Assembly (NCBI GenBank): GCA_023251835.1 | Contig: JAHEXZ010000055.1 | Location: 1-35,108 of the forward strand | Direction of reading: 5' to 3' | DNA from: Bacteroidota bacterium | GTDB lineage: Bacteria; Bacteroidota; Bacteroidia; 2-12-FULL-35-15 | DNA length: 35,108 nt | Shown here: positions 11,218-28,540 of the stretch, piece after piece | Position numbering within the stretch: position 1 is the first letter of the stretch | Layout: every line of letters begins with the position of its first letter | The notes under the pieces: generated by a model | Database searches by the model: none | What the model was told of the DNA's origin: nothing | Seen by the model: the letters and a program-made list of their open reading frames with translations, nothing else | Program-made: the position numbers and the translations under genes

Positions 11218-11826
11218 ATGACAAAAGACAATTCAACAGAACAAAAAATACTGGAAGCTGCAGAAGAAGTATTCCATGAAAAAGGGTACGATGGTGCCCG
11301 TATGCAGGAGATAGCCCAGCACGCAGGTATAAACAAAGGCCTGCTACATTATTACTTCCAAACCAAAGATAAATTGTTTGAAGCCATATTCAGTGTTGCC
11401 CTAAACAGAATGGTTTCAAGGGTGCATATTATTTTAGAAACGGAAGGAACATTGGAAGAAAAAATAGATTTGATTATTGATCAATACATGAACATTGTTT
11501 TAAAAAACCCTTCTTTGCCGCGTTTTGTAATTACTGAACTTAATAAAAATCCGGATCGTTTTATTGCACGACACATTAACAAAGATGCTAAAAATGCATT
11601 CTCTGCTTTTTTAATATCTGTACAAAAAGAAATTGACAAGGGTACTATCCGGCAGATTGATGCAAGGCAACTGCTAATGAATATGATATCACTTATTATA
11701 TTTCCATTCATAGGCCGTCCTATCATGCAGGTATTTTTTGGTGCCAACAATGAAGAATTTAAAAAACTGTTAGGTGAACGAAGGGAGCATATAAAAATAT
11801 TCATTAAAAACGCTATAAAAAAATAA
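11218..11826 (+). CDS. TetR/AcrR family transcriptional regulator
   Basis: The 202-aa product is of typical TetR length. The N-terminal helix-turn-helix is clear: ILEAAEEVFHEKGYDGARMQEIAQ, then HAGINKGLLHYYFQTKDKLFEAIF (about residues 10-58). The C-terminal part is an all-helical ligand/dimerisation domain whose effector cannot be predicted. It is the first gene of a run that continues with TolC, HlyD, two ABC ATPases and two ABC-2 permeases, so it is most likely the local repressor of that exporter. This parallels CecR (YbiH) next to YbhGFSR in enterobacteria. A 16-bp palindrome just downstream (11843-11858) is a candidate binding site. Confidence 0.93.
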   Translation: MTKDNSTEQKILEAAEEVFHEKGYDGARMQEIAQHAGINKGLLHYYFQTKDKLFEAIFSVALNRMVSRVHIILETEGTLEEKIDLIIDQYMNIVLKNPSLPRFVITELNKNPDRFIARHINKDAKNAFSAFLISVQKEIDKGTIRQIDARQLLMNMISLIIFPFIGRPIMQVFFGANNEEFKKLLGERREHIKIFIKNAIKK

Positions 11827-11830
11827 TTTT

Positions 11831-11863
11831 TTTGAACGTAATTTACCCGTACAGGTAATATTT
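11831..11863 (+). promoter_or_regulatory. Candidate promoter of the exporter operon
   Basis: TTTG at 11831-11834 (-33) and TAATATTT at 11856-11863 (a partial match to TAnnTTTG) are separated by 21 nt, within the 19-21 nt spacing known for Bacteroidota promoters. ATG of tolC follows at 11887. The candidate TetR operator fills the spacer. Confidence 0.4.
11843..11858. promoter_or_regulatory. Candidate TetR operator (16-bp palindrome)
   Basis: TTACCCGTACAGGTAA is symmetric at 7 of 8 base pairs, with only the C/A pair at 11848/11853 breaking symmetry. Its length and placement between the TetR gene and the operon it precedes, overlapping the presumed -33/-7 spacer, fit a TetR-family operator. Binding is inferred. 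Confidence 0.5.
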
Positions 11864-11886
11864 ATTTAATACAAAATATAAATAAA

Positions 11887-13149
11887 ATGAGAGCCTTGTT
11901 TAATTTTTGTTTTCTGTTGTTCTTAGGTTTTGAAATCCCTGGCCAAAACCTAAAATCATTAACAATCGAGGATTGTTATATACTATCTAAACAATATTAT
12001 CCACTAACAAAACAAAGAGAACTGATTGAAAAGAGCAGGGATTATTCCATAGAAAATGCTTCTAAAGGCTATTTGCCCCAAATAAATATTGGAGGGCAGG
12101 CTACCTATCAATCTGACGTAACAAAGATCCCCATAACACTTCCCAATACCACAATTAAAACATTAAGCCAGGATCAGTACAAGTTATATGGTGAGATAAA
12201 TCAGCCATTGACAGATGCTTTTATTATCAGAGAGCAAAAAGAACTTATAACTTCCAATGCCACAATCGAAGAACAAAAAACAGAAGTAGAATTATATAAG
12301 TTAAAAGATCGTATCAATCAATTATTTTTTGGCGCAATATTGATGGAAGAGCAGTTAAGACAAGTTGAATTACTGAGAAAAGATATTCAGAGTGGAATGG
12401 ATAAAATAAATGCAGCACTTGCCAACGGTACTGCATTAAAAAGTAACATTGATGTGTTAAAATCGGAATTATTAAAAACCGATCAACGTAGTATAGAACT
12501 GAAATCAAGCCGAAAAGCATATATAGAAATGCTCGGACTGCTTATTAATCAAACACTCAGCGAAACGATAACCCTTGAAAGGCCACAAAGTAAGGTTCCA
12601 TTACAAGGCATTTCCAGGCCTGAAGTAGCCTTATTTGACCAGCAGGCAAAAATTTTTGAAAGTCAGGATAAATTATTGATAGCAAAAAATTTTCCACGCG
12701 TATCCTTGTTTTTTCAGGAAGGTTATGGAAAACCAGGTCTAAATATGCTTAGTAATAATTTCGATTTTTATTACATCGGTGGTATACGCTTCAACTGGGC
12801 CTTGTCCTCCTTTTATACTTTTAAAAAAGAACGAATGTTATTAAATGTAAACCAAAATATATTGAATATACAAAAAGAAACATTTTTATTCAACACAACT
12901 ATTACTTTACAACAACAAAGCAATGAGATTATAAGATTGCAGGAGCTGATAAAGCTGGATACAGACATAATTTTACTGCGTTCAAATATTAAAAATGTAG
13001 CTAACACACAGTTAGAAAACGGTATTATAACAGCTAACGACTATCTGCGCGAAGTGAATGCAGAAGATCAATCAAAACAAAACCTGCTGCTGCACCAGAT
13101 ACAGCTATTATCAGCCCAATACAATTATCAGACAACGGCAGGAAATTAA
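11887..13149 (+). CDS. TolC family outer-membrane efflux protein
   Basis: The 420-aa product has an N-terminal signal peptide (MRALFNFCFLLFLGFEIPGQ) and the periodic helical OEP layout of TolC channels: LTIEDCYILSKQYYPL near the N-terminus, a long coiled-coil arm (about 100-220), and a second half with GGIRFNWALSSFYTFKKE, typical of the OEP beta/alpha repeat. It should form the trimeric outer-membrane exit duct for the adaptor and ABC pump encoded next. It is 60 nt after the TetR gene and 29 nt before the HlyD gene, indicating one transcript. Confidence 0.9.
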   Translation: MRALFNFCFLLFLGFEIPGQNLKSLTIEDCYILSKQYYPLTKQRELIEKSRDYSIENASKGYLPQINIGGQATYQSDVTKIPITLPNTTIKTLSQDQYKLYGEINQPLTDAFIIREQKELITSNATIEEQKTEVELYKLKDRINQLFFGAILMEEQLRQVELLRKDIQSGMDKINAALANGTALKSNIDVLKSELLKTDQRSIELKSSRKAYIEMLGLLINQTLSETITLERPQSKVPLQGISRPEVALFDQQAKIFESQDKLLIAKNFPRVSLFFQEGYGKPGLNMLSNNFDFYYIGGIRFNWALSSFYTFKKERMLLNVNQNILNIQKETFLFNTTITLQQQSNEIIRLQELIKLDTDIILLRSNIKNVANTQLENGIITANDYLREVNAEDQSKQNLLLHQIQLLSAQYNYQTTAGN

Positions 13150-13178
13150 AAAACAGTACACAAAAAAATTAATTTATT

Positions 13179-14069
13179 ATGAGAGCACTAACAATTACAA
13201 CACTCACAATAGCTGTAGTATTGACCTCCTGCACAAACAAAAATAGTTTCGATGCATCCGGAACATTTGAGGCAGAAGAAATCATTATAGCTTCTGAAGC
13301 TTCAGGAATGATTAAACAGTTTAACATTACTGACGGTGATGAATTAAAAGCCAATCAGCCTATAGGATTTGTAGACAGCACTCAGTTGTATTTGAAGAAA
13401 AAACAGTTGGAGGCACAAATACATGCAGCACTCAGCAAAAGGCCTGATATTTCAGCACAAACCGCTTCTATACAGGAACAGTTAAAAGCGACCGAAAAAG
13501 AACAACAACGGATAAATAAGTTGGTAAAAGCGGAAGCTGCCACACAAAAACAATTAGATGATATAAATGCACAAATAGAAGTATTAAAAAAGCAATTAGA
13601 AGCACTGCAATCCATATTATCCACTTCATCCGAAGGAATTGTTCAGGAAACAATGCCTTTAAAAATACAAATAGAGCAGGTAAATGATCAACTCGTAAAA
13701 TGCCGTATTATTAATCCAATTAACGGAACCGTACTGGCAAAATATGCAGAAGCAAACGAAATAACAGCTCCGGGAAAACCTTTATATAAAATAGCAGATT
13801 TATCAAACCTTATATTACGCGCCTATGTCTCAGGAAACCAGCTTTCACAAATCAAGCTGGGACAAAAGATAAAAATTTATACAGACAATAGTAATGATGG
13901 CTACAAAGAACAGGAAGGTACAATAACATGGATCAGCGATAAAGCCGAATTTACTCCTAAAACAATTCAGACAAAGGATGAAAGGGTAAACTTAGTATAT
14001 GCTATGAAAGTGCTTGTTAAAAATGATGGTTTCTTAAAAATAGGCATGTATGCCGAAATCAAATTCTGA
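13179..14069 (+). CDS. HlyD/YbhG-type periplasmic adaptor lipoprotein
   Basis: The 296-aa membrane-fusion protein has a lipoprotein signal MRALTITTLTIAVVLTSC with lipobox LTSC. The first lipoyl half (IIIASEASGMIKQFNITDGDELKANQPIGFVD) is followed by a coiled-coil hairpin (about 65-165, rich in Gln/Lys/Glu heptads), the second lipoyl half (CRIINPINGTVLAKYAEANEITAPGKPLYKIAD) and a beta-barrel domain. It resembles E. coli YbhG in domain order and size. It should link the ABC inner-membrane complex to the TolC-like channel. Gaps to both neighbours are 29 nt. Confidence 0.92.
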   Translation: MRALTITTLTIAVVLTSCTNKNSFDASGTFEAEEIIIASEASGMIKQFNITDGDELKANQPIGFVDSTQLYLKKKQLEAQIHAALSKRPDISAQTASIQEQLKATEKEQQRINKLVKAEAATQKQLDDINAQIEVLKKQLEALQSILSTSSEGIVQETMPLKIQIEQVNDQLVKCRIINPINGTVLAKYAEANEITAPGKPLYKIADLSNLILRAYVSGNQLSQIKLGQKIKIYTDNSNDGYKEQEGTITWISDKAEFTPKTIQTKDERVNLVYAMKVLVKNDGFLKIGMYAEIKF

Positions 14070-14098
14070 CTGCCGTTATAAACTTATTATCAGGATAA

Positions 14099-15010
14099 AT
14101 GGTTCAGCTTAACAATATCAGTAAAACTTACAACAAAGGGAGTACATTGGCTGTAGATAATGTTTCTTTTTCTGTAGATAAAGGAGAGTTATTTGGCCTG
14201 ATTGGCCCTGATGGTGCAGGCAAAACAAGCATCTTCAGAATACTTACCACACTTTTGCTGCCGGACACCGGAACAGCAAGTGTTACAGGATTAGATATTA
14301 TAAAAGATTATAAAGCCATCCGAAACGGTGTAGGATATATGCCAGGCAGGTTTTCATTATATCAGGATTTAACAGTAGAAGAAAATCTTAATTTCTTTGC
14401 GACTCTTTTTAATACTACTATTCGTGAAAATTATGAGTTGATAAAGGATATTTATATACAGATAGAGCCTTTTAAAACACGGAGAGCAGGAAAGCTTTCC
14501 GGTGGCATGAAACAGAAACTGGCTCTTTGTTGTGCACTCATCCATAAGCCAACCGTTTTATTCTTAGATGAACCTACCACCGGGGTAGATGCCGTTTCCC
14601 GAAAAGAATTTTGGGAAATGCTAAAACGCCTTAAAGAACAAGGAATAACTATACTTGTATCTACTCCATATATGGATGAAGCAACGCTTTGCGACAGGAT
14701 TGCATTGATTCAAACCGGGAAAATATTATCCATTGATACACCTGAAAAAATTATAAAACAGTTTCAGGAGCAGCTTTATGCAGTTAAATCAGGGAATATG
14801 TACAAGCTATTAAATGATTTGAAGAGGTATGAATATATTTCCAGTTGTTACCCTTTTGGAGAGTTTTTTCATGTATTATTTAAAAACAATGTTCATAATA
14901 TTAAAACAGAAGTAATGAACTATCTTAAAAGCAAAGGACATGAGCAGTTGGAAATGCACTCCATACCACCAACAATAGAAGATTGTTTTATTAAATTAAT
15001 GACTCACTAA
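14099..15010 (+). CDS. ABC exporter ATPase 1 (H-loop degenerate)
   Basis: The 303-aa ATP-binding subunit resembles the N-terminal half of E. coli YbhF. Walker A is GPDGAGKT (36-43), the signature LSGGM (133-137) and Walker B VLFLDEP (153-159, E158). At the H-loop, where STHYMDEA is expected, the sequence reads STPYMDEA with P190, so the switch histidine is missing. An extra C-terminal segment of about 90 residues follows the ATPase fold. With the next gene it would form a heterodimer in which only one ATP site is fully canonical. It is cotranscribed with the adaptor (29 nt) and the second ATPase (23 nt). Confidence 0.92.
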   Translation: MVQLNNISKTYNKGSTLAVDNVSFSVDKGELFGLIGPDGAGKTSIFRILTTLLLPDTGTASVTGLDIIKDYKAIRNGVGYMPGRFSLYQDLTVEENLNFFATLFNTTIRENYELIKDIYIQIEPFKTRRAGKLSGGMKQKLALCCALIHKPTVLFLDEPTTGVDAVSRKEFWEMLKRLKEQGITILVSTPYMDEATLCDRIALIQTGKILSIDTPEKIIKQFQEQLYAVKSGNMYKLLNDLKRYEYISSCYPFGEFFHVLFKNNVHNIKTEVMNYLKSKGHEQLEMHSIPPTIEDCFIKLMTH

Positions 15011-15033
15011 ATAATCCGGTTGAAACAAAGAAA

Positions 15034-15777
15034 ATGACAACAACTGTTATAAAAACAGAGAATCTGACTAAACGTTTTGGTGATTTCATTGCCGTTGACA
15101 AGATATCATTTGAAGTTCATCCGGGCGAAATATTTGGTTTTCTGGGTGCAAACGGAGCTGGTAAAACAACAGCTATGCGTATGTTGTGCGGGCTTTCCAT
15201 ACCTTCTAATGGTTTTGCAACCGTTGCAGGCTATGATGTATATAAAGAAACCGAACAAATAAAAAAAAGCATTGGCTATATGAGTCAGAAATTTTCTCTT
15301 TATGAAGACCTCACTGTTACAGAAAACATACATTTTTTTGGTGGTATATATGGATTATCTGATAAACAAATAAAAGAGAAAAGCACTGAACTGATACAAA
15401 AACTGGAGTTGGAAGATCAGACTAAAAAACTTGTAAAAACATTGCCATTGGGCTGGAAGCAGAAACTTGCATTCTCAGTTGCAATTATCCATCAACCACA
15501 AATTGTTTTCCTGGATGAACCTACAGGAGGTGTTGACCCTGTTACAAGAAGACAATTCTGGGATTTGATTTATGATGCGGCTGATAAAGGAATTACTGTA
15601 TTTGTTACTACACATTATATGGATGAAGCAGAATACTGTCACCGTGTTTCAATAATGGTAGATGGGAGTATAAAAGCGCTTGATTCACCATCTGCTCTGA
15701 AAAAACAATTTTCAGCTGACTCTATGGATAAAGTATTTTATGAGCTTGCCAGAGGAGCAAAAAGAAGTGATAATTGA
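15034..15777 (+). CDS. ABC exporter ATPase 2 (signature degenerate)
   Basis: The 247-aa ATP-binding subunit matches the C-terminal half of YbhF. Walker A is GANGAGKT (38-45), Walker B IVFLDEP (catalytic E162), and the H-loop is intact (TTHYMDEA, H194). The ABC signature reads LPLGW (137-141) in place of LSGGQ. This complements ATPase 1, which has a normal signature but no H-loop histidine. The gene is followed 7 nt later by the first permease. Confidence 0.93.
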   Translation: MTTTVIKTENLTKRFGDFIAVDKISFEVHPGEIFGFLGANGAGKTTAMRMLCGLSIPSNGFATVAGYDVYKETEQIKKSIGYMSQKFSLYEDLTVTENIHFFGGIYGLSDKQIKEKSTELIQKLELEDQTKKLVKTLPLGWKQKLAFSVAIIHQPQIVFLDEPTGGVDPVTRRQFWDLIYDAADKGITVFVTTHYMDEAEYCHRVSIMVDGSIKALDSPSALKKQFSADSMDKVFYELARGAKRSDN

Positions 15778-15784
15778 GCAAAAA

Positions 15785-16891
15785 ATGAAACAGTTTATCA
15801 CATTTGTTAAAAAAGAATTTTATCATGTTTTTCGCGACAGAAAAACACTATTGATGCTTTTTGGGTTGCCCGTTGTTCAAATAGTTCTTTTCGGTTTTGC
15901 TTTAACCAACGAAATAAAAAATACTAAAGTTGTTATTCTGGATTACGCAAAAGATGAGGCATCCGGTAGTATCATCAATAAAATTGAGGCAAGCAGCTAT
16001 TTTGAAATTGAGCACTCCTTGTTAAGCCATGAAGAGATAGAAAGGGCATTTAAACAAGGAACAATAAAGCTGGCTATAGTATTTCCGGTAAATTTCAATA
16101 ATGATTTATTGCATTTAAACAAATCACAAATTCAGATTATTGCAGACGCTTCCGATCCTAATACCGCTAACACCTTAATTAGTTTTACTACATCTATTAT
16201 CAGTGACTACCAAAAGGAATTAATGCAAATCAATGCTCTTCCTTATCTTATTATACCGAAAATACGTATGCTGTACAATCCTGAATTAAAAGGCGCACCA
16301 AATTTTGTTCCCGGTGTAATGGCACTCGTACTTACGCTGATATGCGTAATGATGACTTCAGTTGCCATCGTAAAAGAAAAAGAAAAAGGAACAATGGAAA
16401 TTCTGCTCGTATCTCCTTTTAAACCAATTCTTGTTATTCTCTCAAAAGCAATCCCCTACCTTTTAATTTCTTTTGTAAATGTCAGCGTAATTTTATTGTT
16501 GAGCGTTTTTATTCTGGATATGCCTATTAATGGAAGTATCGTATTACTTTTTGCTGAAAGCACATTACTGATTATCACGGCACTCTCATTGGGACTTTTT
16601 ATTTCAACTGTAACCGATTCGCAGCAAACGGCCATGATGTTGTCAATGATGGGAATGATGCTGCCTACCACCTTGTTTTCAGGTTTTATGTTCCCAATAG
16701 AAAACATGCCTGTAGCTTTGCAGTTAATTTCTAACATAGTTCCGGCAAAGTGGTACTATATTATTGTAAAATCAATAATGATAAAAGGCTTAGGGTTTTC
16801 CGGTGTATGGAAGGAAACGCTTATTCTAACAGCAATGACAGTGTTTTTAATGATTATAAGCCTGAAAAAATTTAAAACCCGATTAGAATGA
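15785..16891 (+). CDS. ABC-2 type permease 1 (YbhS-like)
   Basis: From ATG 15785 the product is 368 aa. An in-frame ATG at 15740 would overlap the upstream gene by 38 nt and add 15 hydrophilic residues; the later start matches the family's usual MKxFxxFVKKEFxHxxRDRKT opening. One N-terminal membrane segment (LLMLFGLPVVQIVLFGFAL) is followed by a periplasmic domain of about 130 residues and then five membrane segments from residue 175 on. The EKEKGTMEILLVSPF motif is typical of ABC-2 permeases. It should pair with the next gene product as a heterodimeric membrane domain. The substrate is unknown; drugs or small lipophilic molecules are usual for YbhFSR relatives. Confidence 0.92.
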   Translation: MKQFITFVKKEFYHVFRDRKTLLMLFGLPVVQIVLFGFALTNEIKNTKVVILDYAKDEASGSIINKIEASSYFEIEHSLLSHEEIERAFKQGTIKLAIVFPVNFNNDLLHLNKSQIQIIADASDPNTANTLISFTTSIISDYQKELMQINALPYLIIPKIRMLYNPELKGAPNFVPGVMALVLTLICVMMTSVAIVKEKEKGTMEILLVSPFKPILVILSKAIPYLLISFVNVSVILLLSVFILDMPINGSIVLLFAESTLLIITALSLGLFISTVTDSQQTAMMLSMMGMMLPTTLFSGFMFPIENMPVALQLISNIVPAKWYYIIVKSIMIKGLGFSGVWKETLILTAMTVFLMIISLKKFKTRLE

Positions 16892-18009
16892 GAACAATAA
16901 AACTATTGCTACAAAAAGAATTCAGGCAAATATTCAGAAATAAAACTCTGCTGCCTTTAATCTTTATTGTACCCTTGGTACAGTTGTTAATATTACCACT
17001 GGCCGCGGATTATGAAATAAAAAATATATCTATTTCAGTAGTTGATCATGATCATTCAACGTATTCAAGAAATCTGATTACAACCATTATCTCATCCGGT
17101 TATTTCAGGTTGGCAGGGTATGACCCTTCTTATAATGCCGCTATTCATAAAGTAGAACATGATAAAGCTGACCTAATCCTGGAAATACCTGCCGGTTTTG
17201 AAAAAACATTGGTGCGTGAAAGCCTGGAGCAGCTTTTTATTGCGGTGAATGCAATTAATGGTGTAAAAGCAAATATAGGTGGTGCATATCTGAGTAGTAT
17301 TATAAATAATTATAATGCCGACCTCCGTGCTCAATGGATTCAGCCTGTTCGCTTTAACTCCGCTCCCATCATTGAAATTACAACATCTAACTGGTTCAAT
17401 CCTTTTATGAATTATAATCTTTTTATGGTTCCCGGAATTTTAGCTATACTTATCACAATGGTAGGCGGTTATATGTGTGCTCTCAATATTGTAAAAGAAA
17501 AAGAAATAGGAACCATTGAACAAATCAATGTAACACCAATAAAAAAATACCACTTTATTCTTGGTAAGCTAATTCCTTTTTGGGTCATCGGCATAGTTGT
17601 ATTTACTTTCGGGTTATTCATTATAGGCAGGCTTATCTATGGTATTATTCCGGCTGGGAGTATCCTATTGCTATATGCTTTCCTTTCTATATATCTTGTA
17701 GCACTTTTAGGCTTTGGTCTGCTTATTTCTACTTATTCGGAGACCCAACAGCAAGCTATGTCAATCGCTTTTTTCTTTGTTATGATTTTTATTATGATGA
17801 GCGGCTTGTTCACCTCTATTGACAGTATGCCCTTATGGGCAAAAACAATTGCAAACCTAAACCCGGTTACCTATTTTATAGAAGTAATGCGGATGATTGT
17901 ATTAAAAGGAAGCGGGTTTGATGACATCAAGCTCCATTTTCTGATTATAGGAATATTCGCCATTTTTCTGAATGGCTGGGCTGTTATGAATTATAAAAAA
18001 ACAAGCTGA
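16888..18009 (+). CDS. ABC-2 type permease 2 (YbhR-like)
   Basis: The 373-aa product has the same topology as permease 1: one N-terminal membrane helix (LLPLIFIVPLVQLLILPLA), a large periplasmic domain, then a five-helix bundle with EKEIGTIEQINVTPI, LSIYLVALLGFGLLIST and SGLFTSIDSMPLWA. The start overlaps the stop of permease 1 by 4 nt (ATGA), indicating translational coupling. It is the last gene of the exporter operon. No strong terminator is seen in the 137 nt that follow. Confidence 0.92.
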   Translation: MRTIKLLLQKEFRQIFRNKTLLPLIFIVPLVQLLILPLAADYEIKNISISVVDHDHSTYSRNLITTIISSGYFRLAGYDPSYNAAIHKVEHDKADLILEIPAGFEKTLVRESLEQLFIAVNAINGVKANIGGAYLSSIINNYNADLRAQWIQPVRFNSAPIIEITTSNWFNPFMNYNLFMVPGILAILITMVGGYMCALNIVKEKEIGTIEQINVTPIKKYHFILGKLIPFWVIGIVVFTFGLFIIGRLIYGIIPAGSILLLYAFLSIYLVALLGFGLLISTYSETQQQAMSIAFFFVMIFIMMSGLFTSIDSMPLWAKTIANLNPVTYFIEVMRMIVLKGSGFDDIKLHFLIIGIFAIFLNGWAVMNYKKTS

Positions 18010-24125: not shown

Positions 24126-24187
24126 ACTGTGTGTGCCCGGTATAGTTGTTCTGCGTTAAAAATTCTAATACCATTTGGAACACAATC

Positions 24188-25303
24188 ATGAAAAAACTAA
24201 TTCTGATTTCCGCAATTCTACTACTCCCTTCACTTTTAGCAATAGTGGCTGGTAACAGTTCCTTTTCAGAGAGAGCCGGAGGGGCTTGCTTTGCTCAAGT
24301 TCCTCCCGAAGGAATAAATTATCAGGCGGTGGCAAGAGATAATTCAGGAACGGCTATTTCCAATGCATATTTGAAGGTTCGATTTACCATTAGAGAGTTG
24401 ACAGCCTTCGGTACTGTTGTATTTAGAGAGATACATGAGGATACTACCAATTTATATGGCTTATTTACTTTAGTAATAGGTAAGGGTACGCTTGTTTCAA
24501 CAGATTCTTTTTCGGCTATTAACTGGGAGAATGGAAGTAAATATTTGGAAGTAGAAATAGATACCCTTGGTGGAACAAGTTTTATTTCTATGGGAACAAC
24601 TCAAATGATGAGCGTTCCGTATGCCTTGTATGCAAAAAAAAGCGGAACACAAGCTACCACTGGTAGCACAGGATTAACAGGAAGCACTGGTTCAACCGGA
24701 GCTACAGGCAGTATAGGTGCTACTGGATGGAGCGGTTCAACTGGTACAGCCGGGACTACTGGTTCAACCGGAGCTACCGGTGCAGACGGAGCTTTAAACG
24801 CATGGTCACTCACTGGTAATGTGGGTACCAACGGGGGGATTAATTTTATTGGTAGTAGCGATAATGTATCACTTAGATTCAGAACCAATAATACAGAAAA
24901 AATGATTATTGATTCATTGGGAAAAGTAGGAATAGGAACTGCCTCCCCAAACACAAGAGTTGATATATCAGGCGATGTTGCAACCAGGGAATCTAATATT
25001 ACCGTATCTGGAAATTCAAATAATATAGCCATCGGCAATTCTACTTTTATCAGGATAACCGGCCCAACTGCAAATTTTGATGTTACCGGTTTTGCAGGTG
25101 GAGTTGATGGAAAAATATTAATTGTGGCCAACTATACGAATTATTCAATGATTCTGAGATATCTCGATTCAGCTTCATTACCTATTAATCAATTAATTTT
25201 AAATGGTAGCGTGGATATAACTATAAATAAAAACGGAGGTGCCATTTTCATTTACAGCGCAGCAATAGGTAAATGGTTTCTGGTTGGGAATTCCAAGCCT
25301 TAA
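24188..25303 (+). CDS. Secreted collagen-like repeat protein
   Basis: From ATG 24188 the product is 371 aa. It has a signal peptide (MKKLILISAILLLPSLLAIVAG). An N-terminal domain of about 110 residues begins at VPPEGINYQAVARD and ends VPYALYAKKS, a module frequent in Bacteroidota surface proteins. A Gly-X-Y collagen-like tract of about 50 residues follows (TGSTGLTGSTGSTGATG and on), and then a C-terminal beta-rich region including KVGIGTASPNTRVDISGD, a phrase typical of tail-fibre or surface-adhesin proteins. It is probably an exposed surface protein. The residues between the signal core and QVPPEG look like an insertion encoded by a repeat-like GC-rich patch (24260-24290). Confidence 0.8.
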   Translation: MKKLILISAILLLPSLLAIVAGNSSFSERAGGACFAQVPPEGINYQAVARDNSGTAISNAYLKVRFTIRELTAFGTVVFREIHEDTTNLYGLFTLVIGKGTLVSTDSFSAINWENGSKYLEVEIDTLGGTSFISMGTTQMMSVPYALYAKKSGTQATTGSTGLTGSTGSTGATGSIGATGWSGSTGTAGTTGSTGATGADGALNAWSLTGNVGTNGGINFIGSSDNVSLRFRTNNTEKMIIDSLGKVGIGTASPNTRVDISGDVATRESNITVSGNSNNIAIGNSTFIRITGPTANFDVTGFAGGVDGKILIVANYTNYSMILRYLDSASLPINQLILNGSVDITINKNGGAIFIYSAAIGKWFLVGNSKP

Positions 25304-25379: not shown

Positions 25380-25431
25380 AACAGGCTGTCAAAGGAAATC
25401 CAATTTTCTTTTTATATCTTCGCATAACAAA

Positions 25432-25833
25432 ATGAAAACTATTCAAAAAATAGCAGCCCTCTTTTTATCGGTAATTTTTCTGTTGTTCAGCTTTGGTTTT
25501 ACCATAAACAAAATGGTGTGTTTGAAAAGCGGTAAAATGAAAGTGTCGTTGAGCAACATAAAAGATTGTTGCTCAATGGAAAGTAAAACTGCTATACCTG
25601 TTGTAAAAGCACACTGTTGTGATATAAATTCTACTGCTTTTCATCTGAACGATTATAATCCTTCACAACAGTACTCAATGCCGGTTGTTGTTCACTATAC
25701 GTTGCCTTTAAATCAGAAAGAAATCAGTTTCGGTTATTATTGGGATAAAACGCTGAAATTAATTGCTGCCAACCTTCCTCCTCCCATTTATGGGAAACAA
25801 TTGCTCTCTTTCATCTCTGTATTTGTCATTTGA
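25432..25833 (+). CDS. Secreted Cys-rich HYC/CC/PP-type protein
   Basis: From ATG 25432 the product is 133 aa. It has a signal peptide or N-terminal anchor (IAALFLSVIFLLFSFGF). Cysteines occur at C30, the pair C46-C47 and the pair C62-C63 (AHCCD). A C-terminal NLPPPIYG precedes a hydrophobic end. The order (single Cys motif, CC pairs, PP motif) matches what I know as the HYC_CC_PP family of small Bacteroidota proteins, with MVC in place of HYC. The next genes are a TonB receptor and an HMA-domain protein, so binding of copper or another soft metal in the periplasm is the likely theme. Metal binding is inferred. Confidence 0.7.
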   Translation: MKTIQKIAALFLSVIFLLFSFGFTINKMVCLKSGKMKVSLSNIKDCCSMESKTAIPVVKAHCCDINSTAFHLNDYNPSQQYSMPVVVHYTLPLNQKEISFGYYWDKTLKLIAANLPPPIYGKQLLSFISVFVI

Positions 25834-25844
25834 TTTATTGATAA

Positions 25845-25879
25845 AGTAAAGTGTGTATCCGAATACACTTTACTAATTT
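25845..25879 (+). terminator. Hairpin between the Cys-rich gene and the TonB receptor
   Basis: AGTAAAGTGT (25845-25854) pairs with ACACTTTACT (25865-25874). An alternative register gives two 6-bp helices (AGTAAA/TTTACT and GTGTAT/ATACAC) with a GT bulge. AATTTTCTT follows. It could be an intrinsic terminator or partial attenuator within the locus. Confidence 0.55.
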
Positions 25880-25925
25880 TCTTCGGCCAACTTTTCGAAA
25901 AAACTTATTTATCAATTAAACACAA

Positions 25926-28145
25926 ATGATTCGACTATTCTATCTGATGCTATTTGTTATATCTACCAACAGTATCTATTCACAGCATATCACCGGAAAA
26001 GTTTTTGGAACAACAGATAAAGGAACCAGAGAGCCGCTTCCCGGTGCTAATATATACTGGCAGGGAACAACAACAGGTACTTCTACTGATTCTGTAGGAA
26101 TATTTCATTTAACCACTCCCGCAATATTACCGGCAAAACTTATAATAAGTATGCTGGGTTATACAAGTGATACAATCATAGTAAAGGAATCGCCACATAA
26201 AGCATTTGAAATAGTCCTTAAAAACACTATTTCGCTAAAAGAAGTAACTGTAGAAACACGACAAAATACTACGCTTTATTCTACTTTTAATCCAATTAAT
26301 ACCGAAGTAATTAGTGGTAAAGAATTGCTAAAGGCTGCTTGCTGCAATTTATCGGAGAGTTTTACTACCAATGCTTCTGTTGACATTGCTTTTACAGATG
26401 CTGTTTCAGGTGCAAAAAAAATTCAGATGCTGGGACTGGATGGTATTTATACACAGATATTATCAGAAAATATGCCCATGCTGCGTGGACTTTCTGCGGC
26501 ATACGGACTAAATTACATCCCAGGTACATGGATTGAAAATATAATGGTTACAAAAGGTACAGGCTCTGTTGTTAATGGTTATGAAAGCATTTCAGGCCAG
26601 ATCAATCTTGAATTTCTAAAACCAAAAGAACAGAAAGCTCCCTTATTTATTAACATATATGGCAATCATAAAAGCAGAGCCGAAGTCAATGTACATATTA
26701 CACCCAAAATAAACGAAAAGTGGGGAACACTTTTATTCCTGCATGCCAGCGATTTAAGTATGAAAAATGATATGAATAAGGATTCTTTTTTAGATATGCC
26801 CTTAACCCGCCAATATAATGTTTTTAACAGGTGGAACTACCACAACCAGAAAAATTTTCAGGCACAGTTTGGTGTAAAAGCATTACTGGAAACCAGGCAA
26901 GCGGGCCAAACAAGTTTCAATTATAAAAATGATTTTGGCACCACCAATGCGTATGGTGTTGGTATTAATACCAAAGCCCTGGAATACTTTTCAAAAACGG
27001 GGTTTATGTTTCCATCTATGCCCTATAAAAGTATTGGCATACAAACATCAGGCAAATGGCAACAACGTGATATGTACTTTGGTTTGAGAAAGTATAAAGG
27101 AGAACAAAAAAATTTCTATGCAAATATCATCTATGCAAACATTATTAATACAACCAATCACAAATACAAATTAGGAGCAAGTTACCTTTTTGATGATTAT
27201 GCAGAAAAATACAATGATTCTTCCTTTGCCCGTACTGAAAGTGTTCCGGGTATCTTTGCAGAATATACATATACACATTCCGATAACTTTTCCTTAGTTA
27301 CAGGTATCCGTGCTGATTATCATAACCTGTTTGGAATGCAATACACACCACGTGTTCACATGCGTTATAATATTACTAAATCCGGCACTTTGCGTTTATC
27401 TGCCGGAAGAGGTTTCAGAGTGGCCAACATCTTTGTAGAAAACCAATCGGTATTTGCCAGTTCCAGACAAGTAATTGTAGTGGAAAAATTTAAGCCTGAA
27501 ATTGCCTGGAATTATGGGATAAGTGCAAATCAAAAATTTCAATTATTCAGCAACGAGGCATTTATAAATGTAGATTTTTTCAGAACAGATTTTCAAAATC
27601 AGGTAGTTGTTGACCTCGACCAACATGTAAATAAAATAGTATTTTATAATCTTGATGGAAAGTCTTATTCCAACAGTTTACAGGTAGATTTCGGTTTTAC
27701 ACCTCTTAAAGCGCTCGATATAAAATTAGCTTATAAGTGGTATGATGTTAAAACAACTTATCATAATGAATTACTTGATAAACCTTATGTTCCAAAACAC
27801 CGTGTTATGTTTAATGCTGCATATAGCACCTATATGGATATATGGAAATTTGATTTCACAACCAACTGGCTTGGTAAGAGTCGAATACCAAATACATCAA
27901 TGAGCCCTGTTCAATGTCAATTACCAGAACATTCAAAAGAATATTTTTTGTTGAATGCACAAATCACAAAAAAATTCAGGAAATTTGATGTATATCTGGG
28001 ATGTGAAAATATTTTAAATTACACTCAAAAAAATCCGGTCATAGCTCCTGACAAACCTTTTGGCAGCAACTTTGATGCATCCATGATTTATGCTCCTATT
28101 GAAGGGCGTATCATTTACGCAGGATTCAGGATGGCAATAAAATAA
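25926..28145 (+). CDS. TonB-dependent receptor (metal-associated subfamily)
   Basis: The 739-aa outer-membrane active transporter is energised by TonB. A signal peptide (to about residue 19, SIYSQ) precedes a carboxypeptidase-regulatory-like domain (ITGKVFGTTDKGTREPLPGAN, about 20-110), the plug (about 125-230) with the CC pair C139-C140 in KAACCNLSESF, and a 22-strand-type barrel ending in a typical aromatic C-terminus. The CCNLSESF and DMPLTRQYN phrases are ones I recall in a Bacteroidota receptor group found beside heavy-metal proteins. The flanking HYC/CC/PP-like and HMA proteins support copper or a copper chelate as cargo. This is not proven, and other metals or metallophores remain possible. 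Confidence 0.88.
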   Translation: MIRLFYLMLFVISTNSIYSQHITGKVFGTTDKGTREPLPGANIYWQGTTTGTSTDSVGIFHLTTPAILPAKLIISMLGYTSDTIIVKESPHKAFEIVLKNTISLKEVTVETRQNTTLYSTFNPINTEVISGKELLKAACCNLSESFTTNASVDIAFTDAVSGAKKIQMLGLDGIYTQILSENMPMLRGLSAAYGLNYIPGTWIENIMVTKGTGSVVNGYESISGQINLEFLKPKEQKAPLFINIYGNHKSRAEVNVHITPKINEKWGTLLFLHASDLSMKNDMNKDSFLDMPLTRQYNVFNRWNYHNQKNFQAQFGVKALLETRQAGQTSFNYKNDFGTTNAYGVGINTKALEYFSKTGFMFPSMPYKSIGIQTSGKWQQRDMYFGLRKYKGEQKNFYANIIYANIINTTNHKYKLGASYLFDDYAEKYNDSSFARTESVPGIFAEYTYTHSDNFSLVTGIRADYHNLFGMQYTPRVHMRYNITKSGTLRLSAGRGFRVANIFVENQSVFASSRQVIVVEKFKPEIAWNYGISANQKFQLFSNEAFINVDFFRTDFQNQVVVDLDQHVNKIVFYNLDGKSYSNSLQVDFGFTPLKALDIKLAYKWYDVKTTYHNELLDKPYVPKHRVMFNAAYSTYMDIWKFDFTTNWLGKSRIPNTSMSPVQCQLPEHSKEYFLLNAQITKKFRKFDVYLGCENILNYTQKNPVIAPDKPFGSNFDASMIYAPIEGRIIYAGFRMAIK

Positions 28146-28180
28146 CTATTTTCTAATACTTTAAAACAATTAAAAATCAA

Positions 28181-28540
28181 ATGAAAAAAATGGGAACAAA
28201 AAAAATTACAAGCGCTTTATTTATAACGCTTTTTGCATTTGCCTTTTCAGCTAAGGCACAGAACGCAAAAAAAGCTGAATTAAAAGTGAAAACATCTGCA
28301 GTATGTGAAATGTGCAAAACAACCATTGAAAAAGAGCTGGCCTTTGCTAAAGGTGTGAAGAGGTCTGCCGTAGATGTTCCATCAAAAATAGTAACTATAA
28401 CTTATAACCCTAAAAAAACTACACCAGAAAAAATTCGCCAGGCAATTGCCAATGCAGGATATGATGCTGATGATGTGCCAGCCAATCCTAAAGCATACGA
28501 AAAGCTCAATGCCTGCTGCAAAAAAGACGGTACTCATTAA
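28181..28540 (+). CDS. Secreted heavy-metal-associated (HMA) domain protein
   Basis: The 119-aa product has a signal peptide (to about AKAQ, residue 27) and one HMA/CopZ-like ferredoxin fold. The metal-binding motif is VCEMC (C42, C45), followed by the family pattern of KTTIEKELAFAKGVKRSAVDVPSKIVTITYNP and EKIRQAIANAGYDADDV. A C-terminal ACC (C112-C113) adds two thiols. The canonical motif is MxCxxC; here the residue two before the first Cys is Ala, giving SAVCEMC. It is probably a periplasmic Cu(I) chaperone or scavenger working with the receptor encoded 35 nt upstream. Confidence 0.87.
   Translation: MKKMGTKKITSALFITLFAFAFSAKAQNAKKAELKVKTSAVCEMCKTTIEKELAFAKGVKRSAVDVPSKIVTITYNPKKTTPEKIRQAIANAGYDADDVPANPKAYEKLNACCKKDGTH

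Follow-up and report, generated by a model that had tools for sequence, protein, structure and literature searches.

A Predicted Stop-Anchored RNA Helix Behind a Candidate HYC_CC_PP Leader Gene in a Putative Copper Receptor Operon of Bacteroidota

Known Leader Peptides and Copper Receptors

To our knowledge, copper sensing and outer-membrane copper transport in Bacteroidota are little described. Experimental precedents for leader ORFs in copper operons are CutF and CruR (PMC9973294, PMC9426467). CutF of Rhodobacter capsulatus, encoded by the first gene of the copper operon cutFOG, is a small exported cysteine protein with a C-terminal proline motif; an intergenic stem-loop lies over the start of the gene that follows (PMC9973294). 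CruR is the leader ORF preceding a copper-linked TonB receptor in Bordetella pertussis (cruR-crtA/bfrG-bp2921, PMC9426467). It belongs to the DUF2946 family and acts through Rho-dependent termination; some 45 residues separate its cysteine motif (CxxC) from a PP motif, RAPP, near the C-terminal end. Its operon includes a PepSY_TM partner. According to a survey of RAPP-type leader ORFs, the copper-linked ones are missing from Bacteroidota (PMC12992588). The survey by Ozturk et al. reports many Bacteroidota "CutF-like" proteins with PP in the last 15 residues and mentions TonB neighbours (PMC9973294).

Among TonB receptors, OprC of Pseudomonas aeruginosa uses a plug cysteine for copper, its site being CxxxM-HxM. 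The CrtA copper receptors also stand behind a leader ORF and have no conserved Cys or Met (PMC12914433). Control of a downstream gene by exported leader peptides with conserved C-termini is further represented by SecM, VemP, MifM and the Bacteroidota secDF leader peptides (PMC10987492); unlike the family described below, these monitor secretion rather than metal and have neither a Cys cluster nor metal operons.

The locus analyzed here has, by analogy, the layout of the CutF and CruR copper leaders: a small gene stands first in an operon with putative copper genes, a C-terminal PP lies at a fixed distance from the cysteines, and an RNA structure is predicted over the next start. The general idea is not new, because the CutF authors already counted Bacteroidota CutF-like proteins, and the family probably overlaps their list. 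As far as the literature consulted shows, the new elements are the identification of the leader as HYC_CC_PP, a replicated helix anchored at its stop codon, the promoter position, and a receptor with a CC pair and an HMA partner or fusion. A literature search for HYC_CC_PP or a comparable Bacteroidota leader returned nothing beyond the CutF survey.

Layout of the Locus and Its Distribution

The window is a 35,108-nucleotide stretch of Bacteroidota DNA, and the locus occupies three consecutive ORFs on its forward strand. These encode a small HYC_CC_PP-type protein of 133 aa (25432–25833; translation, profile search and alignment), a TonB-dependent receptor of 739 aa with a CarbopepD_reg_2 domain, a plug and a beta-barrel (25926–28145), and an exported HMA-domain metallochaperone of 119 aa (28181–28540). 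According to the translations, N-terminal export signals or hydrophobic helices are present in all three. No Rfam element was found in the window at the gathering score.

An earlier note on this DNA had pointed out adjacent thiols in the three exported proteins and read the locus as a copper or soft-metal uptake or handling system. Every Cys position it gave agrees with the translations, and the pairs go beyond chance, as their conservation in the families compared below shows. The leader–receptor–HMA trio, whose conservation the note had proposed to check, turned out to be an operon kept across Bacteroidota. The reading as a soft-metal, probably copper, handling locus stands on this conservation, on the invariant CC pairs and on an HMA–receptor fusion. 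That the small protein is itself a third member of the handling system is not supported in this form: where its gene stands, its spacing, its predicted disorder and the helix anchored at its stop speak for a cis-regulatory leader. Three features come in addition to those of the note: C30, the C-terminal PPP of the small protein, and an RNA helix from the stop of its gene to the receptor start.

Of 297 Bacteroidota genomes sampled, 92 contain HYC_CC_PP; within three families it is present in 57/61, 54/61 and 59/60 genomes. At about 130 Bacteroidota loci it stands first and codirectional with metal genes, heading genes for CC receptors, CusA-type efflux proteins, HMA chaperones or OEP. By Pfam matches and the sequences themselves, the first downstream proteins (n = 108) include 30 with a TonB plug, 28 of the ACR_tran/CusA type, 20 HMA, 6 OEP, 4 HMBD and 3 DUF3347. 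Nearly all genomes of the window genus with a full locus keep the leader–receptor–HMA order, which is also found in Parabacteroides distasonis and Bernardetia. In two loci of this genus (L014, L031) the receptor–HMA pair has no adjacent leader, and at L032/L015 the leader heads a longer operon, visible in the longer records L055/L044. Haliscomenobacter has a candidate small ORF and a receptor with a CusA gene downstream.

TAnnTTTG is the known −7 element of Bacteroidota. A similar box, TATCTTCG, with one mismatch to it, is located at 25415–25422 (+), 17 nt before the leader ATG. Of 135 leaders, 66 carry the exact element no more than 20 nt from the start, compared with 7 of 107 control gene starts; where present, it mostly lies 12–17 nt upstream of the leader ATG, and it was found within 2 of 115 leader-to-gene gaps. 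Because of this position, the leader gene is likely to be the first of the unit, with transcription probably starting near its ATG.

The Small Cysteine-Rich Protein

The small protein consists of an N-terminal signal or transmembrane helix, C30, the pairs C46-C47 (codons 25567–25572) and C62-C63 (25615–25620), a variable linker, and the end LPPP...FISVFVI-stop. The PPP motif (residues 116–118, 25777–25785) lies 54 residues after C62 and 18 from the C-terminus. Alignment of 71 small proteins showed C30, C62 and C63 to be invariant and C47 and PP to be at least 90% conserved. The only family matched by the window protein, and weakly, is NCBIfam NF047658, HYC_CC_PP (20.6 bits, E = 5e-4, below the curated cut-off of 28); all 71 aligned relatives match it (E ≤ 0.01). 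The protein is assigned to HYC_CC_PP by this homology and by its CC and PP motifs. The family name itself spells out the conserved motifs; the family has no assigned function.

PP lies within 40 residues of the C-terminus in 125 of 135 members, mostly 17–18 from the end, and is missing in about 7% of members. It is thus further from the end than in CruR, and differs from the CutF-like proteins, whose search needed PP within the 15 C-terminal residues. Other differences from CutF are the cysteine pattern (HYC/C..C/CC in place of CxxxC) and the lack of a match to Pfam DUF2946 at E ≤ 0.1 in the 71 members. The distance from the last CC to PP is mostly 53–59 residues among the 135 members and mostly 54–61 in a held-out set.

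The C-terminal part is also marked in other respects. Ile is the last residue in 96/135 members, and TGA is the stop codon of 81/135 leaders against 73/445 neighbouring genes, an excess that may partly arise because TGA pairs in the helix described below. Within the window genus conservation is highest in the last 21 residues (0.70) and lowest in the linker (0.26). AF2 gave the N-terminal helix as the only confident helix, with little else predicted. The C-terminus varies in type with the downstream gene (L060–L180); examples are NAPPLFKLYHQYIFYS ahead of receptors and YxPPL...ETYLI ahead of CusA. These types could stand for different signs of regulation. Because of its position, spacing, predicted disorder and the stop-anchored RNA helix, the small protein looks more like a cis-acting leader ORF than a third working protein.

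The Helix between the Leader Stop and the Next Start

Bacteroidota make little use of Shine-Dalgarno pairing. Folding of the gap between leader and receptor in the window gave −20.2 kcal/mol (z −4.2). The 5′ arm of the predicted outer helix (25831–25844, +) begins at the TGA stop codon of the leader, and the 3′ arm (25909–25922) ends 3 nt before the receptor ATG; between them lies an inner hairpin of 12 bp (25845–25874; 25845–25856 with 25863–25874). The outer helix of the window itself is moderate (−8.8 kcal/mol as a duplex). Across loci, the 5′ arm is recurrently found at the stop codon and its partner just before the next ATG, while the sequences are locus-specific. The start at the stop codon itself is a further difference from CutF.

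For each gap, the 24 nt at its beginning were paired with the 36 nt at its end, and the result was compared with pairing to the gaps of other loci. Own-gap pairing had a median of −9.55 versus −4.7 kcal/mol for mismatched gaps (n = 112 loci, p = 8e-25; this and the following p-values are too small, as shared ancestry is ignored). The signal is present in receptor-headed (p = 9e-16), CusA-headed (p = 3e-6) and HMA-headed (p = 1e-3) operons, as well as inside the window genus alone (p = 6e-6). Sliding of the 5′ arm gave a single sharp optimum at offset 0, the first base of the stop codon. Held-out loci from genomes unused before (n = 73) repeated the result (−9.4 versus −5.4, p = 2e-13, optimum 0 to +3); this repeat and the position of the optimum are independent of the p-values. 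In control gene pairs the pairing excess was weak and broad, lay further downstream and did not peak at the stop. These comparisons show a predicted helix that covaries across Bacteroidota leaders and is anchored at the stop codon.

A strong outer helix is missing in about a quarter of the leader gaps. In strong helices the GC content of the arms is about 25%, and a median distance of 5 nt separates the end of the helix from the ATG. Upstream of the ATG, T runs show no clear enrichment (20/115 gaps versus 17/145). The AT-rich arms, the 3′ arm near the ATG and the unenriched T runs speak for a helix that masks the start region and against an intrinsic terminator, which was rejected on the T runs and the AT-rich arms.

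The Receptor and the HMA Chaperone

The receptor matches the Pfam plug and barrel models and, with its fold matches to Cir, BtuB and OprC, belongs to the TonB-dependent transporters, which are defined by a plug and a 22-strand barrel. The plug pair C139-C140 (KAACCNLSESF, codons 26340–26345, +) occurs without exception in the leader-linked receptors (44/44), and three other TonB receptors encoded in this genome lack it. Histidines are kept as well (of 44, H273 in 43, H466 in 41, H478 in 39 and H412 in 38). No second invariant Cys was found among the 44 receptors. A structural disulfide, which the earlier note had named as a finding that would speak against its reading, is therefore rejected as unlikely, there being no conserved partner. 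The AF2 model of the receptor has a mean pLDDT of 82.7, and around C139-C140, with values of about 31–52, it is not reliable.

The receptor is not an OprC, since the OprC-type model TIGR01778 gave no match up to E = 1 and the plug reads CCNLSES without CxxxM. With its invariant CC and an HMA partner, the receptor also falls outside the CrtA family, which is defined by a PepSY_TM partner and the lack of conserved Cys/Met.

The last protein contains an HMA domain (44.6 bits versus the Pfam cut-off of 24.8) with a CxxC at C42/C45 and a C-terminal CC at residues 112–113. Among the HMA partners of the family, all 43 have this C-terminal CC, and a pattern count finds CxxC in 42. At one locus (L102) an HMA domain is fused ahead of the receptor plug (residues 34–86, 23.9 bits, just under the same Pfam cut-off); a similar N-terminal HMA-like stretch, outside the reach of Pfam, occurs at L119. 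The sequence evidence that receptor and chaperone form a putative copper or soft-metal pair is good. Metal uptake driven by the receptor may follow from this pairing; a role in copper excess competes with this reading, because the leader family also heads CusA-type efflux operons.

Proposed Mechanism and Alternatives

Region 25415–28540 is probably one copper or soft-metal transcription unit, in which a leader controls the receptor and the HMA protein. Transcription would begin very near the ATG of the small gene, whose product would be a short-lived exported leader peptide with its main job done during synthesis. The spacing of 53–59 residues, together with the figures of the CutF authors (the ribosome holding about 30 residues and the membrane spanned by 17, PMC9973294), would place the Cys pair just outside the membrane when PP is reached. 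The Cys cluster would be outside once the ribosome is at the PPP...FVI-stop end, about 55–72 residues later. Metal, presumably copper, bound to the emerged cluster could then alter the dwell time of the ribosome at the leader end. The helix starting from the leader stop codon would cover the start region of the receptor gene, and a ribosome parked, or pausing, at the stop would open it and switch on the receptor and the HMA protein. From the receptor, with its CC metal site at the plug, the metal or a complex of it could go on to the HMA protein in the periplasm.

One sign of regulation cannot serve a simple uptake account and a simple efflux account alike, because the leader family precedes import-type as well as efflux-type genes. 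Efflux genes are expected to be copper-induced. For the window operon, we lean slightly towards uptake. On the broader scale, HYC_CC_PP would be a Bacteroidota-wide nascent-chain copper sensor of uptake and efflux genes, without sequence kinship to the DUF2946 leaders, that acts by parking the ribosome at the stop codon from which the helix starts, with a new CC-plug copper receptor handing metal to an HMA chaperone; we regard the chances of this whole picture as evenly balanced.

The small protein could instead be an ordinary periplasmic copper binder for storage or hand-over, as the earlier note saw it, with the RNA helix only tuning translational coupling. Export, invariant cysteines and adjoining metal genes agree with such a role. 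However, nothing but the N-terminal helix is confidently predicted, conservation is almost nil in the linker and highest in the final 20 residues before the stop, the gene heads operons of opposite roles, and the RNA helix has its anchor at the stop codon of this gene; a binder is therefore unlikely. Also rather unlikely is an action on transcription, with translation of the leader controlling Rho-dependent or intrinsic termination in the gap, for which CruR offers a precedent (PMC9426467) and the T runs at some gap ends a hint. The frequency of these runs and the AT-rich 5′ arm are unlike an intrinsic terminator, and the 3′ arm lies where the next gene starts.

The sign of control by such a leader could be the opposite of that expected for uptake: receptor and HMA protein could belong to a copper-excess response, switched on by leader and metal together with CusA-type efflux genes. 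Leaders ahead of CusA, HMBD and OEP genes and the CusA gene downstream of the Haliscomenobacter receptor locus make this a tenable, if lesser, possibility. The usual role of TonB receptors, however, is import, copper represses the copper TonB receptor CrtA/BfrG (PMC9426467, PMC12914433), and the sign may differ between receptor-type and CusA-type subfamilies, as their leader C-termini do. Import of an iron siderophore, cobalamin or another non-copper ligand, with an incidental HMA neighbour, is highly improbable. In sequence the receptor comes closest to siderophore receptors, CfrA and Cir among them, with scores far below the cut-off, and its best fold matches are the generic TonB receptors Cir, PirA and BtuB, with OprC further down the list; but these are generic barrel matches at 11–14% identity, whereas the CC pair is invariant in leader- and HMA-linked receptors and absent from the paralogues tested, and an HMA–receptor fusion is known.

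The leader family is named and widespread, its residues and RNA pairings are testable, and culturable hosts such as Parabacteroides distasonis are available. The invariant plug CC is a new receptor signature, and the HMA fusion ties the receptor to the chaperone.

Related Operons and Neighbouring Genes

In three longer operons (L055 3475–8585, L044 3392–8603 and L174) the HYC leader is followed by cytochrome c proteins and a beta-barrel-like protein (FSGNGYCGVD), then by the CC receptor and HMA protein; a link of these operons to respiration is possible. A second HYC_CC_PP gene of the window genome, on contig C92 (L101), precedes a beta-propeller (YNCE-like) and an HMA protein, and the gap after it is about 116 nt, like other leader gaps.

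Another TonB receptor of this genome (contig C74, L009 3987–8883) has the plug motif CNVCNTG. Divergent from its gene lie those of an NRAMP (MntH) transporter, whose C-terminal part is UspA-like, and of a DtxR/MntR-like regulator; the receptor is a candidate manganese receptor. A manganese link was rejected for the window receptor, the NRAMP/DtxR pair adjoining the C74 receptor, which is without CC.

In the window, the region just upstream of the locus (24146–25303) encodes a secreted protein with collagen-like G-x-T repeats. Further upstream, at 11218–18009, genes for TetR, TolC-like and HlyD-like proteins, two ABC ATPases and two ABC-2 permeases are followed by an MFS transporter gene; this is an ordinary operon of the drug-efflux type.
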